Of a stretch of DNA of 64,000 bases, positions 186-58,800 are shown in pieces. Under the pieces are notes generated by a model. That model saw nothing but the letters and a program-made list of their open reading frames with translations. It was not told where the DNA came from and did not search any database. Within the stretch, counting starts at the first letter, position 1; every line of letters begins with the position of its first letter. Source of the stretch: Beroe forskalii (Eukaryota; Ctenophora; Nuda; Beroida; Beroidae); the NCBI GenBank assembly GCA_011033025.1, contig WFMF01000063.1, positions 124,001-188,000 on the forward strand, read 5' to 3'. The position numbers and the translations under genes are program-made.

Positions 186-3100
186 TCCGCCGAAGTGGAT
201 GCAAAGTGGATGCAATGAGACAAATTTGAGACAAATTTGAGACATCGATTTTCTAGCTATAAAAACGGTATTTTGTGACTTCCAATGATACCAAATGGTT
301 TGTAGGATAGTTTTAAAGGTTGTCCAACCTGTCACGGGCCAGTTTGGTCATTTTGGGCCCAATTATGACCCAAATGGGCCCAAAAAGGCCCAATTTTCAA
401 ATTGCTCCAATCGATCTGGAAACACTTCCTATTGATTAATAAACATCCTCTGAGGTATTTTACAAAGTTTCACGGCCCTAAAGTGATATTAAGTGCCCCG
501 CTTCGCATATTCTTGCGTAAAAAGTGGATGCAAATGAGACAAATTTGAGACATTGATATTTTGGCTATACCACCGACTAAATTGGCCCCAGAGAGGTTGG
601 ACATCCTTTAGAACTGTCCTACAAACTATCTGGTATCATTGGAAGTCACAAAATACCACTTTTATAGCCAGAAAACCAATGTCTCAAATTTGTCTCATTT
701 GCATCCACTCTTTTACGCAAGAATATGCGAAGTGGATGCAGAGTGTCCGGGGCACTTAACATCAATTTAGGGCCGTAAAACTTTGTAAAATACCTCAGAG
801 GATGTTTAGAAATCAATTGGAAGTGTTTCCAGATCGATTGGAGCAATTTGATAATTGGGCCTTTAGCCCATTTGGGTCATAACTGGGCCCAAAATGACCA
901 AACTGGCCCGTGACAGGTTGAATAACCTTAGAACTATCCTACAAAAAACCATTTGGTATCATTGGAAGTCCTAAAATACCGTTTTTATAGCTAGAAAATC
1001 GATGTCTCAAATTTGTCTCATTTGTATCCACTTTTTTGAACAAGAATTTGCGAAGTGGATGCAGAGTGTCCGGGTTACTTAATATCAATTTAGGGCCGAA
1101 AACTTTGTAAAATACCTCGGAGGATGTTTATAAATCGATTGGAAGTGTTTCCAGATCGATTGGAGCAATTTGAAAATTGGGCCTTTTGGGCCCATTTGGG
1201 TCATAACTGGGCCCAAAATGACCAAACCAACATGACAGGTTGGACAACCTTTAAAACTATCCTAAAACCATTTGGTATCATTAGAAGTCACAAAATACCG
1301 CTTTATAGTTTTATAGCCAGAAAACCAATGTCTCAAATTTGTCTCTATTTGCATCCACTTTTTGCAAGAATATGCGAAGTGGATGCAGAGTGTCCGGGCA
1401 CTTAATATCACTTTAGGGCCGTAAAACTTTGTTAAATACCTCGGGAGATGTTTATAAATCAAATGGAAGTGTTTCCAGATCGATTGGAGCAATTTGAAAA
1501 TTGGGCCTTTTTGTGCCCATTTGGGTCATAATTGGGCCCAAATGACCAAACTGGCCCGTGATAGGTTGGAAATCCCTTAGAACTATCGTACAAACCATTT
1601 GGTATCATTGGAAGTCACAAAATATCGCTTTTATAGCCAGAAATTCAATGTCTCAAATTTGTCTCATTTGCATCCACTTTTTACGCAAGAATATGCGTAG
1701 TGGATGCAGTGTCCGGGGAACTCAATATCACTTTAGGGCCGTCAAACCTTGTAAAATACATCGGAAGATGTTTATGAATCAATTGCTCCAATCGATCTGG
1801 AAACACTTCCAATTGATTTCTAAACATCCTCTGAGGTATTTTACAAAGTTTTACGGCCCTAAATTGATGTTAAGTGCCCCGAACACTCTGCATCCACTTC
1901 GCAAATTCTTTACTTGTTCAAAAAAGTGGATGCAAATGAGACAAATTTGAGACATCGATTTTCTGTAAAAACAGTATTTTGTGACTTCCAATGATACAAA
2001 TGGTTTGTAGTTCTAGTTGTCCAACCTGTCACGGGCCAGTTTGGTCATTTTGGGCCCAATTATGACCCATAAAACCGAAAAGGCCCATTTTCAATTTGCT
2101 CGATGAAACCTCACTGATTAATAAAACATCCTCTGAGGTATTTTTACAAAGTTCACGGCCCTAAAGTTAAATGCCCCTGTATTCTTGCGTAAAGGGATGC
2201 AAATGAGACAAATTTGAGACATTGATATTTTGGCTATACCACCGACTAAATTGGCCCCAGAGGTTGGACATCCTTTAGAACTGTCCTACAAACTATCTGG
2301 GTATCATTGAAGTCACAAAATACCACTTTATAGCCAGAAAACCAATGTCTCAAATTTGTCTCATTGCATCCACTCTTTTACGCAAGAATATGCGAAGTGG
2401 ATGCAGAGTGTCCGGGGCACTAACATCAATTTAGGGCCGTAAAACTTTTGTAAAATACCTCAGAGGATGTTTAGAAATCAATTGGAAGTGTTTCAGATCG
2501 ATTGGAGCAATTTGATAATTGGGGCCTTTTTTGGGCCCATTTGGGTCGCAACTGGGCCCAAAATGACCAAACTGGCCCGTGACAGGTTGGACAACCTTTA
2601 GAACTATCCTACAAACCATTTGGTATCATTGGAAGTCCTAAAATACCGTTTTTATAGCTAGAAAATCGATGTCTCAAATTTGTCTCATTTGCATCCACTT
2701 TTTTGAACAAGAATTTGCAAGTGGATGCAGAGTGTCCGGGGCACTTAACATCAATTTAGGGCCGTAAAACTTTGTTAAATACCTCAGAGGATGTTTAGAA
2801 ATCAATTGGAAGTGTTTCCAGATCGATTGGAGCAATTTGATAATTGGGCCTTTTGGGCCCATTTGGGTCATAACTGGGCCCAAAATGACCAAACTGGCCC
2901 GTGACAGGTTGGACAACCTTTAAAACTATCCTAAAACCATTTGGTATCATTGAAGTCACAAATACCCTTTTATAGTTTTATAGCCAGAAAACCAATGTCT
3001 CAAATTTGTCTCATTTGCATCTACTTTTTTGCAAGAATATGAAGTGGATGCTGAGTGTCCGGGGCACTTTAATATCACTTTAGGGCCGTAAAACTTTGTT

Positions 3101-3470
3101 AAATACCTCGGGAGATGTTTATAAATCAAAATGGAAGTTTTTCCAGATCGATTGGAGCAATTTGAAAATTGGCCTTTTGTGCCCATTTGGGTCATAATTG
3201 GGCCTAAATGACCAAAACTGGCCCGTGATAGGTTGGAAATCCCTTAGAACTATCGTACAAACCATTTGGTCATTGGGTACAAAAATATCGCTTTTATAGC
3301 CAGAAATTCAATGTCTCAAATTTATCTCATTTGCACTTTTACGCAAGAATATGCAAGTGGATGCAGTGTCCGGGAACTCAATACTTTAGGGCCGTCAACC
3401 TTGTAAAATACACGGAAGATGTTTATGAATCAATTGGAAGTGTTTCAGATTGATTGGAGCATTTAGAATG
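186..3470. repeat. Satellite family A array with internal inversions
   Basis: Tandem units of about 325 bp. The landmark GTCTCAAATTTGTCTC recurs at about 679, 1001, 1329 and 1649. Units contain GGGCC-rich blocks, a TGGATGCA motif and AACATCCTCTGAGG. Orientation flips: roughly 186-560 and 1780-2235 read minus, 560-1780 and 2235-3470 read plus. The first ~1.7 kb is repeated as the second, including the same minus-to-plus junction at about 553 and 2220, so this is a higher-order repeat. The second copy differs largely by single-base deletions. Short ORFs here are by-products of the repeat. Confidence 0.9.
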
Positions 3471-3589
3471 TCTATGCCCTATTCGACAGTGGAATACTTT
3501 TATGGCCTCAAAAGCCGATCAATCTAAAAGCCGATCAATTCAAAAATCAGATCAGATCAATCAATGATAATTATATTTCATATTTTCAG

Positions 3590-6500
3590 ACATGATTGTA
3601 TAGCGAATGCAAGTTACTTAGGATCGTTTTTGGGAGTTTTGAGAAGTTTTGGGCCCCAATATGGCCGAAAAAGGCCCAAAAAGGCCGAAAAATAAAGTTG
3701 CTCAAATTTGATTTTTATCGACTGGAAAGTAATTCTAGACATCCTAGGAAACATTCTGCGTGGTTTTTAGACCGAAATACGCTGTTTTCCGCCTGTGAGG
3801 GATGCATCCATTTCTGAAAAACGGCCTGTAAAAAAGTGGATGCATTTTTACAAAAAGTGTGAAAATGGTTTTGTGGGAGTTTTGAGGGCTGGAAATGTGT
3901 AAAAATGGTTCAGACATGATTGTATAGCGAATGCAAGTTACTTAGGATCGTTTTTGGGAGTTTTGAGAAGTTTTGGGCCCCAATATGGCCGAAAAAGGCC
4001 CAAAAAGGCCGAAAAATAAAGTTGCTCAAATTTGATTTTTATCGACTGGAAAGTAATTCTAGACATCCTAGGAAACATTCTGCGTGGTTTTTAGACCGAA
4101 ATACGCTGTTTTCCGCCTGTGAGGGATGCATCCATTTCTGAAAAACGGCCTGTAAAAAAGTGGATGCATTTTCACAAAAAGTGTGAAAATGGTTTTGTGG
4201 GAGTTTTGAGGGCTGGAAATGTGTAAAAATGGTTCAGACATGATTGTATAATGAATGCAAGTTACTTAGGATCGTTTTTGGGAGTTTTGAGAAGTTTTGG
4301 GCCCCAATATGGCCGAAAAAGACCCAAAAAGGCCGAAAAATAAAGTTGCTCAAATTTGATTTTTATCGACTGGAAAGTAATTCTAGACATCCTAGGAAAC
4401 ATTCTGCGTGGTTTTTAGACCGAAATACACTGTTTTCCGCCTGTGAGGGATGCATCCATTTCTGAAAAACGGCCTGTAAAAAAGTGGATGCATTTTCACA
4501 AAAAGTGTGAAAATGGTTTTGTGCGAGTTTTGAGGGCTGGAAATGTGTAAAAATGGTTCAGACATGATTGTATAGCGAATGCAAGTTACTTAGGATCGTT
4601 TTTGGGAGTTTTGAGAAGTTTTGGGCCCCAATATGGCGAAAAAAGCCCAAAAAGGCCGAAAAAATAAAGTTGCTCAAATTTGATTTTTATCGACTGGAAA
4701 GTAATTCTAGACATCCTAGGAAACATTCTGCGTGGTTTTTAGACCGAAATACGCTGTTTTCCGCCTGTGAGGGATGCATCCATTTCTGAAAAACGGCCTG
4801 TAAAAAGTGGATGCATTTTCACAAAAAGTGTGAAAATGGTTTTGTGCGAGTTTTGAGGGCTGGAAATGTGTAAAAATGGTTCAGACATGATTGTATAGCG
4901 AATGCAAGTTACTTAGGATCGTTTTTGGGAGTTTTGAGAAGTTTTGGGCCCCAATATGGCCGAAAAAGGCCCAAAAAATAAAAATAAAGTTGCTCAAATT
5001 TGATTTTTATCGACTGGAAAGTAATTCTAGACATCCTAGGAAACATTCTGCGTGGTTTTTAGACCGAAATACGCTGTTTTCCGCCTGTGAGGGATGCATC
5101 CATTTCTGAAAAACGGCCTGTAAAAAAGTGGATGCTTTTTCACAAAAAATGTGAAAATGGTTTTGTGCGAGTTTTGAGGGCTGGAAATGTGTAAAAATGG
5201 TTCAGACATGATTGTATAGCGAATGCAAGTTACTTGGGATCGTTTTTGGGAGTTTTGAGAAGTTTTGGGCCCCAATATGGCCGAAAAAGGCCGAAAAATA
5301 AAGTTGCTCAAATTTGATTTTTATCGACTGGAAAGTAATTCTAGACATCCTAGGAAACATTCTGCGTGGTTTTTAGACCGAAATACGCTGTTTTCCGCCT
5401 GTGAGGGATGCATCCATTTCTGAAAAACGGCCTGTAAAAAAGTGGATGCATTTTCACAAAAAGTGTGAAAGTGGTTTTGTGCGAGTTTTGAGGGCTGGAA
5501 ATGTGTAAAAATGGTTCAGACATGATTGTATAGCGAATGCAAGTTACTTAGGATCGTTTTTGGGAGTTTTGAGAAGTTTTGGGCCCCAATATGGCCGAAA
5601 AAGGCCCAAAAAGGCCGAAAAATAAAGTTGCTCAAATTTGATTTTTATCGACTGGAAAGTAATTCTAGACATCCTAGGAAACATTCTGCGTGGTTTTTAG
5701 ACCGAAATACGCTGTTTTCCGCCTGTGAGGGATGCATCCATTTCTGAAAAACGGCCTGTAAAAAAGTGGATGCATTTTCACATATTTTGTGAAAATGGTT
5801 TTGTGCGAGTTTTGAGGGCTGGAAATGTGTAAAAATGGTTCAGACATGATTGTATAGCGAATGCAAGTTACTTAGGATCGTTTTTGGGAGTTTTGAGAAG
5901 TTTTGGGCCCCAATATGGCCGAAAAAGGCCCAAAAAGGCCGAAAAATAAAGTTGCTCAAATTTGATTTTTATCGACTGGAAAGTAATTCTAGACATCCTA
6001 GGAAACATTCTGCGTGGTTTTTAGACCGAAATACGCTGTTTTCCGCCTGTGAGGGATGCATCCATTTCTGAAAAACGGCCTGTAAAAAAAGTGGATGCAT
6101 TTTCACAAAAGTGAAAATGGTTTTGTGCGAGTTTTGAGGGCTGGAAATGTGTAAAAATGGTTCAGACATGATTGTATAGCGAATGCAAGTTACTTAGGAT
6201 CGTTTTTGGGAGTTTTGAGAAGTTTTGGGCCCAATATGGCCGAAAAAAGGCCCAAAAAGGCCGAAAAAATAAAGTTGCTCAAATTTGATTTTTATCGACT
6301 GGAAAGTAATTCTAGACATCCTAGGAAACATTCTGCGTGGTTTTTAGACCGAAATACGCTGTTTTCCGCCTGTGAGGGATGCATCCATTTCTGAAAAACG
6401 GCCTGTAAAAAAGTGGATGCATTTTCACAAAAGTGTGAAAATGGTTTTGTGGGAGTTTTGAGGGCTGGAAATGTGTAAAAAATGGTTCAGACATGATTGT

Positions 6501-6680
6501 TTAGCGAATGCAAGTTACTACGGAACGTTTTTGGGAGTTTCAGATGTTTTGGGCCCCAATATGGCCGAAAAAGGCCCAAAAAGGCCGAAAAATAAATTTA
6601 CTCAAATTTGATTTCTATCGACTGGAAAGTAATTCTAGACATCCTAGGAAACATTCTGCGTAGTTTTTGGACCGAAATAA
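3590..6680 (+). repeat. Satellite family B, ~324-bp head-to-tail array
   Basis: About nine and a half highly similar copies start near 3590, 3914, 4238, 4562, 4885, 5205, 5520, 5844, 6168 and 6484. Each has the start CAGACATGATTGTATAGCGA, a run of GGCC/GGCCGAAAA blocks, an AvrII-like CATCCTAGG and a GTGGATGCATTTTCACA segment. Variation is mostly small indels in the GGCC/A-run block and the TTTTCACAAAA hairpin. The unit length of 324 is divisible by three, so a 73-codon ORF recurs in most copies; it is not evidence of coding. The unit resembles family A in length, GGCC blocks and TGGATGCA motif, so A and B are probably diverged relatives. Confidence 0.93.
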
Positions 6681-37717: not shown

Positions 37718-40700
37718 TTATATACTTATATTATCTTTAAAAGCTTTCTCAAATAAGTGTGTTTTCAACTGTTTTTTAAAATCTTTAATTTCAGGAATAC
37801 TTCTTATTGAATAAGGTAAACTGTTCCAAATTTTAGGCCCACTATATTGAAAAGCTGATTCAGTTCTTGAAAAGTTTGTTCGACAAGGTTTTTTAAGGAT
37901 GAAAAAATCATTGTCCAATCTAAGACTTACTCTCTTAGTATCTCGTAAGGAAATTAGGTCCTTCAAATAATTGGGAGCTATATTATTTATACATTTAAAA
38001 ACTAACAGGGCAATTTTAAATTGAATTCTATAAATGACTGGCAAAAAGTGTAGTTCTTTCAAATAAGGACTGATTGATGTCCATTTCTTTTTACCATACA
38101 GTTTGAAAATAAATCTGACAGCATTGTTTTGGATCTTCTGAAGTTTCTGAATATACTTCTCTGTAGCCAGTAAGTATGAAGAGTTGCAATAGTCCAAAAC
38201 AGATAAAATGTGTGCATGAACCATTTGAACTTTAAGTTCATGGGTGAGTCTTGATCCAATGCGTTTTATATTCCTAAGATTAAGATAGCAGATCTGTGTG
38301 ATATGATTGATCTGATCTTCCATAGAGAGTCGATGGTCAAAGTAAAACCCAAGATTTTTGGTTGCAAGCACTGGACTGACGGACAGATCAGAGGCAGTTT
38401 CACTTAAATCCAGGGACTTGATTGGACTGACATAGTAACCAATATGGGGGGATTGTAGCCCAAAAAAAACCAAAAAAAACCAAAAAAAACCAAGCCCAAG
38501 ATCCCAAATTTAGGGTAGGGCTTGGTTTTTTTTGGTTTTTTATTTTTTGGTTTTTTCGGTTTTTTGGTTTTTTTTTGGGTTGGATTTTTGAACTTTTGGA
38601 CATTTCACACCAATGTGTTATTTGTGTTATTTACATGTTCTTATTGATACTCAATGGTTTCCAATCATTACAGATGGCTTAAATCACTATTTTAAGGACT
38701 TTATTAGCATCCGAGGAGCATTTTAAGAGCCTTCAGTGCTTTTTTTGATAAGGTACAACGGAAAATCATAAGATAGCACGGGACCTTGGTCCAACAGTGA
38801 TTAGAGAGGAACAGTAAAGGATCAAAAGGTGTCGAATCAGACGATACTGGTCTAAACAAGAGTGCTCTGGCCACTCATTAGTCAATACTCGAGGGTCCTT
38901 CAAAAGGTCGCCCTTGGTTCACCAGGGGCCGGATGACGAAGGGCCAAGGATTCACCAAGCGTTACATCGCATCTCAGGGCGAGATAAGAGTCAAGGAGAA
39001 GGCTTCATGAGGAGGAGGTCAGACAAGTGTCACCAGAGGTTCAGAGAAGTGTTGCAAGGAGTCAACTGAGAGTCACAAGGGGCAGGAAAGGACCAACACG
39101 GCACCAGATGAAGGTCGGCCAGTTGAAAGCAATGTAAGAATTTAGCATTCTTGCTTCAATTATGATTGACAAAGGTCAGCCACAATGATCGCCAGAAGAC
39201 CAGTTTGTAGGCATGTAGTCACCAAGCAATGATAAAGGCTTTATCAGTCAGCAAGGCTTGATTATTGATGCTCACAGCTCAGCATATCTTTCACGAAGTC
39301 ACAAGGTCATCTGTGTGGCTAAGGGACAGGCAAGTGCCACCAGCTTCTTGCGAGAGTCGACTTGTTGATGAAACGTGTCCTGTGAAGTGTGAAGTCATGA
39401 TTGAGTAATTAACACTGGGAGAAGTGAGTCTCAAAAGGCTGCCGCCAAGGGTCTGGTCAGACTCTGGTTCATGTAGGAGGGTATTCGGCCAGAAGATCAG
39501 GTCAGAATCACCAGTGGGTTACTTGATCAACTAAGAGATAACAGTGGGCCAGACAAGAAGTACCAGCTGGGTCATGAGATAAGTGTTGTCACCAGTGGTT
39601 TAGGCTTTTAGGCAAGATCAGGAGACGCCAGTAGGTCAGGTAGGATCAAGGGACGCCAGTAGGTCAGGTAGGATCAGGAGACGCCAGTCTCCAATGGGTC
39701 AGGTAGGATCAGTACAGATTCCAGTAGGTCAAGTAGGATCAGTCCAGATGCCAGTAGGTCAGGTAGGATCAGGAGACGCCAGTAGGTCAGGTAGGATCAG
39801 GAGACGCCAGTCTCCAATGGGTCAGGTAGGATCAGTACAGATTACAGTAGGTCAGGTAGGATCAGTCCAGATGCCAGTAAGTCAGATAGGATCAGGAGAC
39901 GCCAGTAGGTCAGGTAGGATCAGGAGACGCCAGTTATAGGTCAGGTAGGAACCGGAGACGCCAGTAGGTCAGGTAGGATCAGGAGACGCCAGTTATAGGT
40001 CAGGTAGGATCAGGAGACGCCAATAGGTCAGGTAGGATCAGGTGAGACGCCAGTCAGGTCAGTAGGACAAGTAGGATCAGGCAGGATCAGGGGGACGCCA
40101 GTAGGACAAGTAGGATCAGGCAGGAGACGCCAATAGGTCAGGTAGGATCAGGATTCAGGAGACGCCAATAGGTCAGGTAGGATCAGGAGACGCCAGTAGG
40201 TCAGGTAGGATCAGGGGACGCCAGTAGGTCAGGTAGGATCAGGAGACGCCAGTAGGTCAGGTAGGATTAGGAGGCTCGGGTAGGATTAGGAGACACCAGT
40301 CTCCAATGGGTCAGGTGGAATCAGTCCAGATGCCAGTAGGTCAGGTAGAATCAGTCCAGATGCCAGTAGGTCTGGTAGGATCAGGAGACGCCAGTAGGAT
40401 CAGGAGACACCAGCTGTAGGTCAAGTAGGATCAAGAGACGCCAGTACACACTACACAGTAGGTCAGGTAGGATCAGTCCAGATGCCAGTAGGAGACGCCA
40501 GTTATAGGTCAGAAAGGATCTGGAGACACCAGAAGATCAGGTAGGATCAGGAGACGCCAGTGGGTCAGGTAGGATCAGGAGACGTCAGTTATAGGTCAGG
40601 TAGGATCAGGAGACGCCAGAAAATCAGGTAGAATCAGGAGATGCCAGTAGCTCAGGTAGGATCAGAAGACGTTAGTAAGTCAGGTAGGATAAAGAAACGC

Positions 40701-43700
40701 CAATGGCTAAAACAGTTACCTATTTGAGCTTTCAATCTAAGTGTCACTAGTGGGTCAGGCAAGAAGTAGCAGCTGGGTCAACAGATAAGTATCTGCTGTC
40801 ACCTATGGTCAGCCAATGGTCGAAAGTAGGTCAGATAAGATTCTTTAGTAGGTCAGGTAAGGTTGTCAGTAGGGTAGGTGAGAGACGCTAGTAGGTCAAG
40901 TAGGAGGCACCAGGAGATCAGGTAAGTGTTACCTGTGGTCCGATTGGCAGCTGGGTCATGAGGAGTCACCAGTCGGTGAGGCATTCAGGCAAAAGGCCTA
41001 ACTTGGTCACAATTTGGTCAGGCTAGAATCGCCACCTAGAACGGGTAAAGGTCACCAGTACGCCAATAGGTCAGGCAAAAGTCATTATTCAGCCAGGCTA
41101 GAGAGAAAGAGGCCCTAGTTGGTCAGGTCAGAGTCACCAGTGAGTTAGGCAAGAGTTAAAAGCTGGGTCTGGCATGGGTCACTAGTCACTGAGGCAAGAG
41201 TCACCAGTAGGTCAGCAAGGGACACCTGTTAGTCAGGCAATGTTGTGCATTTTACTGTAAGGTGATACTTAAGCCCTTTAAGCTCTGAAAGTGTGAAAAT
41301 ATCCGTTTCTATTCATCAAATTAACTTAAAGAGCCGCTGACTGTGAAAATTATGTCCAAAAACAACAGATTTTTAAGTTAAAATTCATTGGAAAAAGCCC
41401 CAGAAATTACCAAAATGTAACCCAAAAAAAACCTAAAAAAACCAAAAAAAACCAAAAAAAACCTAGCCCAAGAATCGAAAAATAGGGTAGGGCTTGGTTT
41501 TTTTTGGGCTACAATCCCCCCCAATATCTATAAACTCAGTTTTTTCATCATTTAATTTCAAAAAGTTGAACATCATCCACTCTTTCACTTCAATGAAGCA
41601 CTCTTTTATCACAGAAAGATTAGGGGTGGCACTATGTACATCAAAAGCAAAGTAGATCTGAGTATCATCAGCGTAAAGGTGGACAGAAAGACCATATTTC
41701 ATGATTATTTCCTCAAGATCTTTGGTGTAAAGAATAAACAATAGTGGACCTAAGATTGATCCTTGTGGTACTCCAATCTCTAGTAAATGTTCAGTAGAAG
41801 AACTATCATTTATAGTGACTTTGAACTTCCTTTCTGATAGGTATGATTTAAACCATTGTAATGCTGTTCCATGCACACAGTATTTCATCTGCAGTTTTTT
41901 CAAGAGCAGCCTATGGTTGATTGTATCAAAAGCTGCACTAAGGTCTAACAGCAACAGCACAACATTTTCTTTTCCATCCAACATTAGAAGTATATCATTT
42001 TGTATTTTCAGTACTGCTGTCTCACAACTGTGATATTTTCGATATGCAGACTGAAAATCACTGAAAAGACATTGATCCTCAAGGTGTTTGACTAGCTGAC
42101 TGTGAACTATTTTCTCTAGTAATTTAGAAAGATAAGGCAAATTACTAATTGGCCTATAGTTGCTAAGTACATCACTATCAAGAGAAGGTTTTTTAATGCC
42201 AGGCCTCACAGAAGCTGTCTTGAATTTACTTGGAAAATATCCTGTTTTCAGAGACTCATTGATGATATAATGAATGATCCTTATGAGTTCTGGAAGGCAT
42301 GCTTTGAAAAGTGTGACTGGAATTGGGTCTAAGGAGCATGATTTATCTGGAAGGTCTAGAGCCAATTCCATGACTTCTTCTATGGAAACTTCCTGGAAAA
42401 AGGACAAATTTTCGGTGGAATTTTTGTTTGGCAAAATCTGGTGAGTATTTGTGGACTCATTAAGGTTTTCTTCAATATTACAGTAGATTGATTTGACTTT
42501 TTCATCAAAGAAGGTGCCAAACTTTTCAGCAACTGTGAGATCATCTTTGTCATTTGGTAGTTTTTTACAGCCAATTTCACGATCAAGCAGTTTGTTGATG
42601 ACCTTGTATGTACCTTTAGGATCCCCTTTCACCATAGATAGTTTTTCATCATAGTATTGATTTCTAACCTGGTCTATAATAATAGCTTTATCAATACACT
42701 TTTCATGGAAGATTTCATTGATTTCTGGATCATCAGGATTTTTTGCTGCTTTTCTTTGAGCTTTTCGTGCCTCAGTCCTGGCATTCTGACATCTTTCATT
42801 CCACCATGGAGATCGATTGTGGTTGAATTTTTTGGAAGTCAAAGGAGCATGTTTATCTAATAATTCAATCATTGTACTCAAATATAAATCAACTGCATGG
42901 TCAATGGAATCGAAATCTGAAAGGTTAACAGGGGAGCAGAAAAGATCTTCTCTGAAGCTAGGCAAATCTATTTTTTTGAAGTCTCTTACATCTTTGAATT
43001 CAAATTTTGACTCTTTTCTAGTTATTGAAACATCAACTGGGAGAGTAAAGCTAACAAGATAGTGATCTGATGTTGTGCCAGTGTTCTTGTCAACTTTGAC
43101 ATCAGAAATTTCAACAGTATCAATAGCCGATTGTAAGGAAAACACTAGATCAAGAGTACTGCCCGAGATTTGAGTGGGACCAGTGACATGTTGTTTAAAA
43201 CCTTTGTTTTTGCAAAGAGACATGAACTTTTGAGCATTTAAATCGTTTTCATTCTCTACATGGAAGTTGAAATCTCCACATATGATTGGATATCCTGTTT
43301 TGAGGAGTAATTCATCTAAGTAAGTTTCAAATTCTTCCATGAATGTCTTTATCTTTGTTTCCTGGTATTTAAGCTTTGATTTTGCTTGAGTTGTACGGTA
43401 AATTGCACAAAGACGGATTAAATCTGAGCTGGTTTTGATTATACACTCAGTCACTTCAAAGGCTTTGTATCCAGTTATCTTATTGGCCACAGGCTTCATT
43501 TTTTCTGTATTATAGATAAAAGCAAGACCACCACCTCTCCCTTTCCGTGGTGCATTTATAACATCAAAACCTGCTTCATGAACTTCTGAAAAACGGGCAC
43601 TTTCATTAGAGGTGAACCATGTCTCAGTCACACAGCATATATCAATTTTTTGATCATTGATCATTTCTAAGACCCCTCTAACCTTATTACACATTGATTG

Positions 43701-43754
43701 TGCATTAAAACAACCCACATGTATTTTTCTATCTGATTCTGCACTAATTTTCAC
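37718..43754 (-). CDS. LINE ORF2: endonuclease-reverse transcriptase, interrupted
   Basis: Coding parts are 41521-43754 and 37718-38438, together 984 codons plus stop once the insertion and one target copy are ignored. Endonuclease motifs: FNAQSMCNK, VTETWF, ICGDFNFH and SDHYLVSF. Reverse transcriptase motifs: RPISNLPYLSKLLEK, LLLLDLSAAFDTINH, GVPQGSILGPLLFILY and the catalytic YADD. The C-terminal domain has the WNSLPYSIR-type tail common in CR1/L2 relatives. It nicks target DNA and primes cDNA synthesis. The frame opens at a GTG within ATGTGA, with no early ATG, so translation probably depends on reinitiation or frameshift. As it stands the interrupted gene should be inactive. Confidence 0.88.
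38446..41520. mobile_element. 3,075-bp non-autonomous inverted-repeat element in the LINE
   Basis: Terminal inverted repeats start GGGGGGATTGTAGCCC and continue with AAAAAAAACC units. Each end also contains a hairpin (CCAAGCCC ... TAGGGTAGGGCTTGG). The flanking 7-bp duplication CCAATAT splits ORF2. There is no transposase ORF; the interior is single-copy-looking DNA plus a large minisatellite. A 7-bp target duplication is compatible with P-like or Dada-like transposons, but the superfamily is not established. Confidence 0.82.
39610..40700 (+). repeat. ~27-bp minisatellite inside the inserted element
   Basis: About 35-40 variants of GTAGGTCAGGTAGGATCAGG followed by AGACGCCA. Decayed units (GGTCAGGC, CACCAGT) extend from about 39,100 to 41,240. 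The ORF reading MGQVGSVQ at 39,694 is a repeat artefact. Confidence 0.9.
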
Positions 43755-44566
43755 ATTACGTTTTTTGATACCAGTTCTGTGTTTTCTTTTAAGCGCTCAA
43801 TTTCTCTCAACATAACAGGACATTTTGAGTCACCAGCATTGTGGGACTTGTAGTTTTCAGCATCATCAGAATGAGTTGAGCCCAGGCATCTAGCACAACA
43901 GTGATTGGCTTGATTGTTCTTGAACTGACATGCAGATGACCTGTGTTTACCCATACAGAACATACATGTTGCATCTTTGCTCCTATTTGGACAATCATTC
44001 GAAATATGGCCAATCATCTGGCAGTGATAACAATGTTTTACATGATACCTATCTTTTATCTGATACCGACTGTTTCCAAGGTATAAGTTTCCACTTTGAT
44101 GGCTCAAAATAGCAAGCCTTATAGCTGGAGAAACTTTCAAGCCAATTGAGACATGTTTAGTAGCTGGATTCTGATTGATATAAATAACATCAATGGTATG
44201 ACCAGAATTATGCAAATTTGCCACACTGGGGTTCTTGGCAAGAATCTTTTCAACAATAACACTTTTTTCCTGTAGTCTTATAGCATTACTGTTCCCTGAT
44301 CTATCGATACCTTCTAATACATCTTCAAGGACATTTGGCAAATAGATTTTAGGGAGCATCTTACTGCCAGACTTGGTATGATAATTTAGGTTCTCCAGTA
44401 TTTTAGAAGAATCTATCTTGTCTTTTCCTTCATCTCTAGAAATTTTGTCCTTAAAACCAATAACAACTTTCATGCTCTTTGGATTAGTTCTTATGAATTC
44501 AACCTGGGTGTCACTGAGCTTCTTCTCAATCACTTTCTTAACAACATTCATTGAGGAAAACGTCAC
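43751..44566 (-). CDS. LINE ORF1: nucleic-acid-binding protein with zinc knuckles
   Basis: 271 residues. The C-terminal third has a CCHC knuckle (CYHCQMIGHISNDC, about residues 183-196), a second Cys/His knuckle (CMFCMGKHRSSAC) and a further Cys/His-rich segment (CCARCLGSTH). Such ORF1 proteins coat LINE RNA and act as chaperones during retrotransposition. The N-terminal region is lysine-rich and lacks a recognisable RRM. The stop overlaps the beginning of the ORF2 frame (ATGTGA). Confidence 0.85.
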   Translation of the reverse strand: MTFSSMNVVKKVIEKKLSDTQVEFIRTNPKSMKVVIGFKDKISRDEGKDKIDSSKILENLNYHTKSGSKMLPKIYLPNVLEDVLEGIDRSGNSNAIRLQEKSVIVEKILAKNPSVANLHNSGHTIDVIYINQNPATKHVSIGLKVSPAIRLAILSHQSGNLYLGNSRYQIKDRYHVKHCYHCQMIGHISNDCPNRSKDATCMFCMGKHRSSACQFKNNQANHCCARCLGSTHSDDAENYKSHNAGDSKCPVMLREIERLKENTELVSKNVM

Positions 44567-55845: not shown

Positions 55846-58800
55846 TCACATTTTGTAATATTGTGATTGGTATGTACTGGCATACCGTACGGCATGTTGT
55901 TGGGGATGTTGATTGACGGGAGCTGGGCAATGGAAAGAAGATGACTCATTGTAACTGAGAGGGGATTGACTGTAACCGTAGCGATTCAAGGATTGAAGCT
56001 GATTGAAGAGAGTAGAGCAATGATGACAACTAATCCGTGCCCGTGGTTGGTTGTAGACAGGTTGATGGAAGGTAGCGGCAGGCTGATGGAAGGTGGAGGC
56101 AGGCTGATGTAAGGTGGAGGCAGGCTGATGGAATGAAGTGGCAGGCTGATGGAAGGTGGAGGCAGGCTGATGCAATGTGGAGGCAGGCTGATGGAAGGTT
56201 GAGGCAGGCTGATACAATGTAGTGGCAGGCTGATGGAAGGTTGAGGCAGGCTGATACAATGTAGTGGCAGGCTGATGTGAGGTGGAGGCAGGCTGATGGA
56301 ATGAAGTGGCAGGCTGATGGAATGAAGTGGCAGGCTGATGGAAGCTGGAGGCAGGCTGTTGGAAGGTGGAGGCAGGCTGATACAATGTAGTGGCAGGCTG
56401 ATGTAAGGTGGAGGCAGGCTGATGTAAGGTGGAGGCAGGCTGATGTAAGGTGGAGGCAGGCTGATGAAAGGTGGAGGCAGGCTGATGTAAGGTGGAGGCA
56501 GGCTGATGAAAGGTTGAGGCAGGCTGATGGAAGGTGGAGGCAGGCTGATGGAAGGTGGAGGCAGGCTGATGGAAGGTGGAGGCAGGCTGATGTAAGGTGG
56601 AGGCAGGCTGATAGGTGGAGGCAGGCTGGATTGGTGCAGCATGGCCTGGGAAGGCGCTTTCGAAGGAACTACTCACGCAGGTACTAGGAGACCCCACTTC
56701 ATCGTACAGCTTAACTCTCTTTGTGTGTCGGGGGTAGCCTTTGGGTTTAGCGTTACGCTGCAAACCGTTCCTCTTGAAAACAATGAAAGACACATTGAGA
56801 TCATGTGACGCTTTCATTGTAGCACAACACTCGTTCGGAGCGTGGAGGTTTGGATCTACGTGGGCGGTGTAAGAGGGCAACACGTATAACTGAAATGGGG
56901 AAAAATGTAAGAACTTTAAAATCAAAACATCAAATTGTATATGCATCGAGCCGACAACCCACCATGGCAACTGACTCGAACTGGCAATCCGTGATCTTAT
57001 GTCTACCCCATGAGGTGAATTACTTAACAAGCTATGGTTGGTTGGCAACCCGGTCGTAGTAACTATCTCGATCTACTTAAATCCAATACTGTAACTCTTT
57101 AATTGACCCTTACCTCGGTCATGTAACAGCTGTTCTTGGCCACATTCCTGACCCAGTGTGTCGTATTTCCACCGATGTTGTCCATGTACACAAACAGCGA
57201 TCCCTTGGCCATGTTTTTCAGGATGAATTCCAGGTTCTTCTTAGCTACCTCCTCGTTCGCTTCCACAGCACTCAGAAACTTGGACATGCAGATTATGTCC
57301 TGGGTCTTCACGTACTCCTGGGGTGAAACACGTAATCAACAGGGGTGTCAAATAAACTGAGATTATGCCAATTTTTAATTACTTATGGGTGATAGTAAAA
57401 ATTTTCAAATTGTACCATTGGAAGGAATGAAACTTTCGGAAGAACATGTGAAACCGGGTAAAACGCAAAATTCCCAATCAGACGCTACAGGATTCGGGTT
57501 ACTTGATCTTTTAATCAGCTTACCAGGACGTCCTTTATGGATGAACCCAGAAAGTCAAGTTGCCCGTATCTGAGTCCGATTCCGCAGAAGTGAGCGAGCT
57601 CCGTGGCTACTTTGCTCCACTCGACACATTTATCCAAAACGTTGAACCTGAGGGTAATACTGCAGGGTGAGGGTGAATCTCTTGCATAGTTCGTGATCAT
57701 ACTTACGAAATGATTTGAATGAAGTCGCACAAATAATGTTCTGATCCTCTCTACCAACGCCTAAACGCCTAAAACGTCTAAATCCCAATCCACCTTATCA
57801 CACCACATCACGTCATCACAACACATCAAACTATGATAATGGTTTTATAAGAGGCCTCTCTCAACCTCCCATGACAGTAATCATCGATAAAATTTTGAAA
57901 AATACTTGAACAAATGGTTTTTGTAATGGAAATTCTACTACATCGATAACTTCAGTGATATTGCCTTTTCTGATGTTCTGATTTGTTCCCAAAATTTGCC
58001 TCATTTTTTCAAATTTGAAAATAGGGAAAAATCCCCATATATTTTATTTGGGGTACGAAAATTGGGGATTTTAGAGAAAAAATCCCATATTTTCGAACCT
58101 CCAAAATTTCGATCCTCGGAATTATTGTCCCATGTTATTTTGTCTTATAAGGTAAATCGTATTTTGCAACATGTACCTATAACGAATGTCAAAAGGCCAA
58201 AATATGATTGAGTTTACCATTTAGAGTGTAAGTGTTTGACAGTACCATCTGACGCCTTAAAAAGTTGGTAAAGGTAACACATCAACCCACGTCAACAAGG
58301 TAATTGTTCTCTCCAGTATCAAGATTGGAGCAAGAAGGTGGCGGATTTTGAGAGTCAAAAGATACCACTTAAGTTGAACAATGAAAACAATCTCAGTTAA
58401 AGATTATCTTGAGAACACAAAAGCATGGAGCCGAGAAAAAAAAACATATAAGTGGTAGGTGCCATTAAAACATAAATGAGTAAAGGCTCCATTTCATGAA
58501 TACAGTATATTGTAATGAGAAAATGAAACCATTCAAGAAATGGAGCCGTTGCAATTATCAAACCGAGCAATCCATTTCGAAATGAAATTTATTTTGTTGC
58601 TTGAACTACTGTGGGTTACTTTAACGATTGCTGAGGGCTGCCTTGAGAAAGCAGAGGATGTTACTGAGGCCAGTAAATCAGGAATTCACATAGTTTTGGA
58701 CCAGTTCGGTCATAAACTCTGTTTGGCACGAGGCCAAAACCGATTTACAGTTGAAGGTAAGGAAGCATACGAAGTAGTTCTAAGGGCGTGTACCTTACAA

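Follow-up and report, generated by a model that had tools for sequence, protein, structure and literature searches.

A LINE interrupted by a 3-kb element

We analyzed 64,000 nucleotides from the ctenophore Beroe forskalii (positions 124,001 to 188,000 of contig WFMF01000063.1, assembly GCA_011033025.1). We refer to this stretch as the window, and coordinates are positions within it. On its minus strand, the window contains a long interspersed nuclear element (LINE) that is split by a mobile element of 3,076 bp (38446..41521, plus strand). ORF1 of the LINE (43751..44566) has a zinc knuckle (zf-CCHC, 3.5e-04). The 5' part of ORF2 (41528..43754) encodes the endonuclease and the reverse transcriptase (Pfam matches to RVT_1, 4.9e-33, and Exo_endo_phos, 8e-09). 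The 3' part of ORF2 (37718..38445) has no Pfam match on its own and is recognized from the joined frame.

That a mobile element was inserted here had been proposed from the sequence of the window, and several lines of evidence bear this out: the inverted ends, the flanking duplication, the healed frame of the LINE, empty paralogous sites, and homologous copies across the genome. If the element and one copy of the duplication are removed, so that the flanks are joined with a single CAATAT, the LINE has one open frame, with 986 codons in the joined stretch. This healing was also claimed at the outset. When we compared the joined 120 bases to the genome, 17 of 19 matches crossed the junction, and the remaining two were the window's own halves. 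The best junction-spanning matches are LINE copies on contigs C253 (85% identity) and C852 (84% identity), over positions 6–118. These matches are empty sites at paralogous copies of the LINE and not an empty allele.

The element begins and ends with terminal inverted repeats of 28 bp (38446..38473 on the plus strand and 41494..41521 on the minus strand), which are 100% complementary to each other. They start with GGGGGGATTGTAGCCC, followed by A8CC runs, as the preliminary description had noticed. It also reported a target-site duplication of 7 bp (CCAATAT) and placed the end of the element at 41520. The duplication is real, and CCAATAT can be read at both flanks, but its first C is at the same time the final base of the terminal CCCCCC. 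The 7-base reading arises because the duplication begins with a C and adjoins the terminal run of C. As described below, no length other than 6 bp is compatible with all 22 complete copies of the family (the window copy, 20 other copies that we fetched, and L059, which has an 8-kb body). So, the duplication is CAATAT (38440..38445 and 41522..41527; the right one is placed by comparing the duplications and by the healed frame), and the true end is 41521.

Each end also contains a palindrome, which is apparent from its inverted arms and from DNA folding. The left palindrome (38459..38579, plus strand) consists of (A8CC)n, AAGCCC, a loop, GGGCTTGG, and (T8GG)n. The right palindrome (41452..41507, plus strand) has a loop that is similar to the left one and in the same orientation. 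The A8CC and T8GG runs border the tips of the hairpins, and each end of the window copy has additional inverted arms. When folded as single-stranded DNA, the left end (38446–38595) reaches -37.9 kcal/mol (z = -5.1) and the right end (41404–41521) reaches -16.6 kcal/mol (z = -3.4). None of 200 dinucleotide shuffles folded as well for either end, which agrees with the hairpins that were proposed initially. These palindromes may have a structural role or might be bound by a protein. The tip and loop of the hairpin form a direct repeat between the two ends in each of the 22 complete copies, unlike the outer 28 bp, which are inverted. The right tip has a single mismatch (CCTAGCCC instead of GGGCTTGG), which is also retained in all 22 copies.

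The center of the element is a minisatellite (39616..40704, plus strand; found with Tandem Repeats Finder). Its unit is about 28 bp long (GGTCAGGTAGGATCAGGAGACGCCAGTA) and it has higher-order periods. The preliminary description put the unit at 27 bp, which is slightly too short, and the minisatellite at about a third of the element, which is right (about 35% of the window copy). At up to 3 mismatches, the unit has 17 matches in the window, as compared to none in any of 100 shuffles. The idea that the minisatellite grew at this site does not hold up: all 22 complete copies carry it, with 14–41 core units per copy, so it was already present in the founder, and the number of units diverged later. 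Slippage or unequal exchange could account for this variation, which may be incidental to movement. On either side of the minisatellite are unique regions without a recognizable gene: the left one (38583..39615, plus strand) is common to the family, and the right one (40705..41421, plus strand) includes degenerate stretches that resemble the repeat unit.

We noticed several variations in these tandem repeats. In the sister copies L044 and L045 (both on C187), the array is partly inverted, with 5 and 3 core units that read from the opposite strand. None of the remaining 20 copies has such units. L049, a 5,754-bp copy, has extra arrays with periods of 133 bp and 143 bp (element positions 322–876 and 1490–2239), which the window copy lacks. 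Also, the window's contig (C725) has at least four more places that match 151 bases of the minisatellite in the window copy with 97–99% identity (around 290510, 345620, 386567, and 547218). The left flank of the copy at 289170 on this contig, which is the only one of these that we tested, is unrelated to that of the window copy.

The element does not appear to encode a protein. The longest open reading frame of the window copy is 111 amino acids, a length that base-shuffled sequence also reaches, and five of its ten longest frames have no Pfam family above the cut-off. This agrees with the earlier statement that the element has no transposase. Similarly, the longest frame was matched by shuffles (4 to 30 of 30) in 20 of the 22 complete copies. 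The exceptions are L059, which is discussed below, and L051, whose frame of 205 amino acids has no Pfam match. There were a few matches below the cut-off, which we take to be due to chance: Maf_N (0.21) in frames of the window copy, DUF3587 (5e-04) in the repetitive frame of L051, and PRF (0.0046) and CagD (0.051) in frames from L082 and L083, two long end pairs.

Elsewhere in the window, there are large tandem arrays with a period of 323–324 bp at 594–6679 (3585–6679 has 9.6 copies at 96% match). A 21-bp tandem repeat with 27 copies (56058–56628) lies within a minus-strand frame of 400 amino acids (55846–57048); the frame is kept open and has seven-residue units that resemble HQPAST.

The G6 family across the genome

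To find relatives of the element, which we will call the G6 family, we searched the genome with a 24-base pattern from its ends. With up to 2 mismatches, there were 162 matches (86 + 76), while the reversed pattern, used as a control, had none. Our counts of elements, pairs, and clusters are based on the 100 of these 162 ends that were listed. These 100 ends correspond to 72 elements, of which 28 have paired ends less than 11 kb apart, with lengths of 2,545–8,035 bp and a median of 3,265 bp. Mutual comparison showed that 21 of the complete copies have a common interior. All 37 of the end loci L002–L038 run on into the same interior, although some of them contain other insertions.

The copies that were fetched whole share their ends, and all 22 complete copies have a target-site duplication. 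When we took the ends to be G6...C6, the duplication was exactly 6 bp long in 20 of the 22 copies. In L044 and L045 it is 5 bp by this rule, and counting one terminal G or C as shared brings it to 6 bp. If sharing with the terminal runs is allowed, then across 21 copies the duplication reads as 6 bp (13 copies), 7 bp (6 copies, including the window copy), or 8 bp (L048 and L049), and never as less than 6 bp. The last terminal C of L049 is a T. The 22 complete copies have 22 different duplications. Among the 20 exact sites, the first base is A in 13 (binomial P = 0.002) and the last base is T in 15 (P = 4e-05), given an assumed frequency of 0.3. This symmetrical preference for A and T is what would be expected of a two-fold symmetrical strand-transfer complex.

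Some of the copies are very similar to each other. Over the stretches compared, the window copy and L051 have 98.8% identity, and the most similar pair (L055 and L056, which are on the same contig) is 99.1% identical. The nearest relative ranges from 72% to 99% identity, and the median across all pairs is 93%. Because 7 of the 22 copies, including the window copy, have a relative with at least 98% identity, some of the movement was recent.

Similar copies also tend to be near each other. For this analysis, we compared the unique parts to the left and to the right of the minisatellite. We used the window copy and the elements from L002–L059 for which at least three-quarters of the compared stretch was found, and we merged loci from the same element. 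The nearest neighbor by sequence was on the same contig for 5 of 29 left ends (mean of shuffles 0.42, and 3 of 2000 shuffles reached 5) and for 5 of 26 right ends (mean of shuffles 0.40, and 2 of 2000 reached 5). Also, the 72 elements include 14 pairs that are less than 100 kb apart, as compared to 2.4–3.4 expected from uniform placement in 216 Mb or, by assumption, in 150 Mb. One of these 14 pairs, with 16 kb between its members on C441, may in fact be one long element. In six comparisons of copies on the same contig, the flanks had nothing in common, and the same was true of the left flanks of the window copy and L002, which is on the same contig. Therefore, these are separate insertions and not segmental duplications. 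Sibling copies that are near one another but have unrelated flanks are signs of local hopping.

The search for a transposase

We searched the genome for several kinds of transposase genes and found 27 Harbinger-like matches, 23 hAT matches, 46 matches to Mutator-like elements (MULEs), 35 matches to Merlin (IS1595-type DDE), and 150 matches to rve (150 scored of 200 candidates). Among the matches listed, and judging by eye, no hAT, MULE, Merlin, or rve gene falls between the listed ends of an element (the search did not extend to P, piggyBac, KDZ, Kolobok, Transib, and other families). Apart from the nested gene described next, only one of the listed matches is within 10 kb of a listed end: an rve frame of 1,553 amino acids, about 6 kb outside of an element on C757.

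By eye, the sole transposase gene inside an element, among the matches listed, is in L059, the 8-kb copy on C553. L059 encodes an uninterrupted DDE_Tnp_4 frame of 372 amino acids and a Myb/SANT frame of 321 amino acids. Such a pair of genes is characteristic of PIF/Harbinger elements (PMC4482050). However, the gene-bearing sequence begins sharply at L059:1028, at a point where the other copies run on without a break, and this base is also where some 38 other matches in the genome start. The relatives of this sequence have their own ends (GGGCCGGATTACACAA...TTGTGTAATCCGGCCC), flanked by TTA/TTA or TAA/TAA, in all five loci with both ends readable, out of ten fetched (L075–L078 and L080). We considered the L059 genes as a potential autonomous partner and rejected them: they are part of a distinct PIF/Harbinger element that is nested within L059 and has ends of its own and a 3-bp duplication. 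The nested element comprises L059:1028–5713 plus GGCCC beyond. The outermost bases of its left end are missing in L059; the ends of its relatives are GGGCCGG....

We also asked if other families have the same terminus, and none appeared among the matches listed. For GGGGGATTGTAGCCC not followed by A, with up to 1 mismatch, we found 188 matches, while the control had 7. Among the 100 that were listed, 94 belong to the G6 family (A next), and the other 6 lack an inverted pair. For GGGGGATTGTA followed by A, C, or T, there were 54 matches, as compared to 81 for the control, and there were no inverted pairs. One match to this second pattern (on C414) faces a family end that is 2.4 kb away and is probably the altered end of a family copy. 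There were no exact matches to the terminus in the viral_contigs and genome_contigs collections.

Two long end pairs, L082 (10.5 kb between the ends) and L083 (7.0 kb), were read in part. They contain other inserted sequence, and ten of their open reading frames had no Pfam match above the cut-off. One minus-strand frame of 127 amino acids, between the ends of L082 on C189 (L082:5667–6047), looked like the nuclease end of a Penelope element, but Pfam gave no such match.

In the literature, none of the articles listed for the terminus (10 of 21) concerned transposons, judging by titles. Among the articles listed on foldback elements, on tandem repeats inside transposons, and on duplications of 6 bp, no title or abstract had this combination (Repbase and Dfam were outside this comparison).

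A non-autonomous transposon and its possible relatives

We are confident that the G6 family is a non-autonomous family of cut-and-paste DNA transposons (class II, with inverted repeats) that was moved in trans by a transposase with a 6-bp stagger. When a DNA segment that lacks genes is moved by cut-and-paste transposition in trans, it creates duplications, and its movement can be partly recent and local. What we observed directly is of this kind: a family with exact ends, 6-bp duplications, empty sites, clustered siblings, and no recognizable transposase in the copies read. The enzyme would probably be a DDE-type transposase. Encoded elsewhere, it would bind both ends and excise the DNA. The excised element would then be joined to target strands that were cut 6 bp apart, and repair of the gaps would create the duplication.

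Some observations weigh against this interpretation. Among the copies read and the 100 of 162 ends that were listed, we did not find a transposase with the family's ends, nor the autonomous relative with those ends that was suggested as a check. The reading of whole copies left out the end pairs on C236 (5.2 kb), C256 (6.3 kb), and C441 (16 kb), along with several pairs of ordinary length. As for local movement, the sequences nearest to the window copy (L051, L053, and L029) mostly come from different contigs. For the left side, L002, which shares a contig with the window copy, is tied for second place. And the clustering of the copies could be due in part to regional target preference or regional survival.

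The G6 family is one more non-autonomous family, and the point of interest is the recently active transposase with a 6-bp stagger. The exact ends and duplications, the partly recent movement, and the signs of local hopping imply that there was a functional transposase in the recent past. Also, this transposon brings its minisatellite along to each new site, and the arrays, which differ (14–41 core units per copy), provide sister loci for studying how tandem repeats change.

Which superfamily might this transposase belong to? One idea is that the G6 family is derived from Mutator or foldback elements, like Tetris of Drosophila virilis, which has inverted repetitive ends, internal tandem repeats, and no genes. 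The architecture is alike, and the genome has MULE matches (46, as mentioned above). In addition, the duplications of IS256 and MuDR, taken together, are 4–10 bp (PMC10045372), which includes 6 bp. However, a survey of MULEs reports duplications of 8–11 bp (PMC6446971), which does not include 6 bp, and the nearest MULE match is about 28 kb from a listed end, by eye. Furthermore, each end of a G6 element folds on itself, instead of the two forming one long inverted repeat. Overall, we consider a Mutator or foldback origin to be unlikely.

A more speculative idea, which we rate as a long shot, is that the family is what can be seen of a transposase superfamily that has yet to be described. Its enzymes would recognize GGGGGGATTGTAGCCC ends that lead into A-rich palindromes and would cut ANNNNT-like targets with a 6-bp stagger, and the autonomous partner would be lost from the assembly or would be among the unread copies. 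If the missing enzyme belongs to no known superfamily, then it would be a new type of DNA-joining enzyme.

We are similarly doubtful that the element was moved by an rve-type (retroviral-integrase-like) or a Dada transposase, which are groups known for 6-bp duplications. Polintons (or Mavericks) are large elements with integrase and polymerase genes, and their ends are AG..CT. The G6 family shares their 6-bp duplication (PMC10045372), but it has no long open reading frame of its own, and rve genes are not linked to its ends: among the matches listed, the nearest is the one outside of the C757 element. IS3EU/GingerRoot elements also have 6-bp duplications, but their termini are TA..TA, or rarely TG..CA, instead of GGGGGG..CCCCCC (PMC10045372). 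The duplications of Dada are 6–7 bp, but Dada inserts mostly in genes for small nuclear RNAs and transfer RNAs (PMC3706591, PMC8869645), and Dada-U6 has no terminal inverted repeats (PMC3706591). In contrast, the window copy has perfect inverted repeats of 28 bp and is in a LINE, and the sites of the G6 family are dispersed (no search for RNA genes was made at the sites of the other copies).

It is very unlikely that the family is a Merlin derivative with an altered stagger. Like Merlin families, G6 elements have termini that start with GG; Merlin inverted repeats are 24–462 bp, and some Merlin families have internal tandem repeats (PMC8101967). The genome also has IS1595-type DDE matches (the 35 counted above). 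But Merlin duplications are 8–9 bp (PMC8101967), while 22/22 copies here fit 6 bp, and Merlin elements have their own transposase gene, which the G6 family lacks. By eye, no Merlin match is inside an element or less than 20 kb from a listed end; the nearest is about 24 kb away, on C514. Finally, it is hardly credible that the family arose by deletion from the Harbinger-type transposon in L059, as an autonomous parent: G6 ends and a 6-bp duplication do surround its DDE_Tnp_4 and Myb/SANT frames, but those genes have the sharp inner border, the many matches starting at the same base, and the independent ends with TTA or TAA duplications that we described above.

Taken together, the ends and the duplication do not match any of the superfamilies we compared in full, and, like the preliminary description, we could not name the family. 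PIF/Harbinger elements have duplications of 0–4 bp, typically the 3-bp TWA (PMC4482050, PMC10045372), instead of 6 bp, and their tie to the G6 family is the nested member in L059. Besides Mutator, hAT is a possible superfamily for the G6 family. We compared hAT on duplication length and gene distance: hAT duplications are 5–8 bp (PMC4482050), which includes 6 bp, and, by eye, none of the hAT genes among the matches listed is within 25 kb of a listed end.

Of the elements that have been described, Tetris, which its authors place in Mutator, offers a detailed comparison (PMC4079207). Like the G6 family, Tetris is non-autonomous, with no conserved open reading frame, repetitive inverted ends, and internal tandem repeats, and its transposase was not found. 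Its duplication is 8–10 bp instead of 6 bp. Also, the tandem repeats of Tetris sit within long terminal inverted repeats, whereas the minisatellite of the G6 family is central, between short ends that are each their own palindrome. The G6 element works like Tetris-type elements, which does not imply that it belongs to Mutator.

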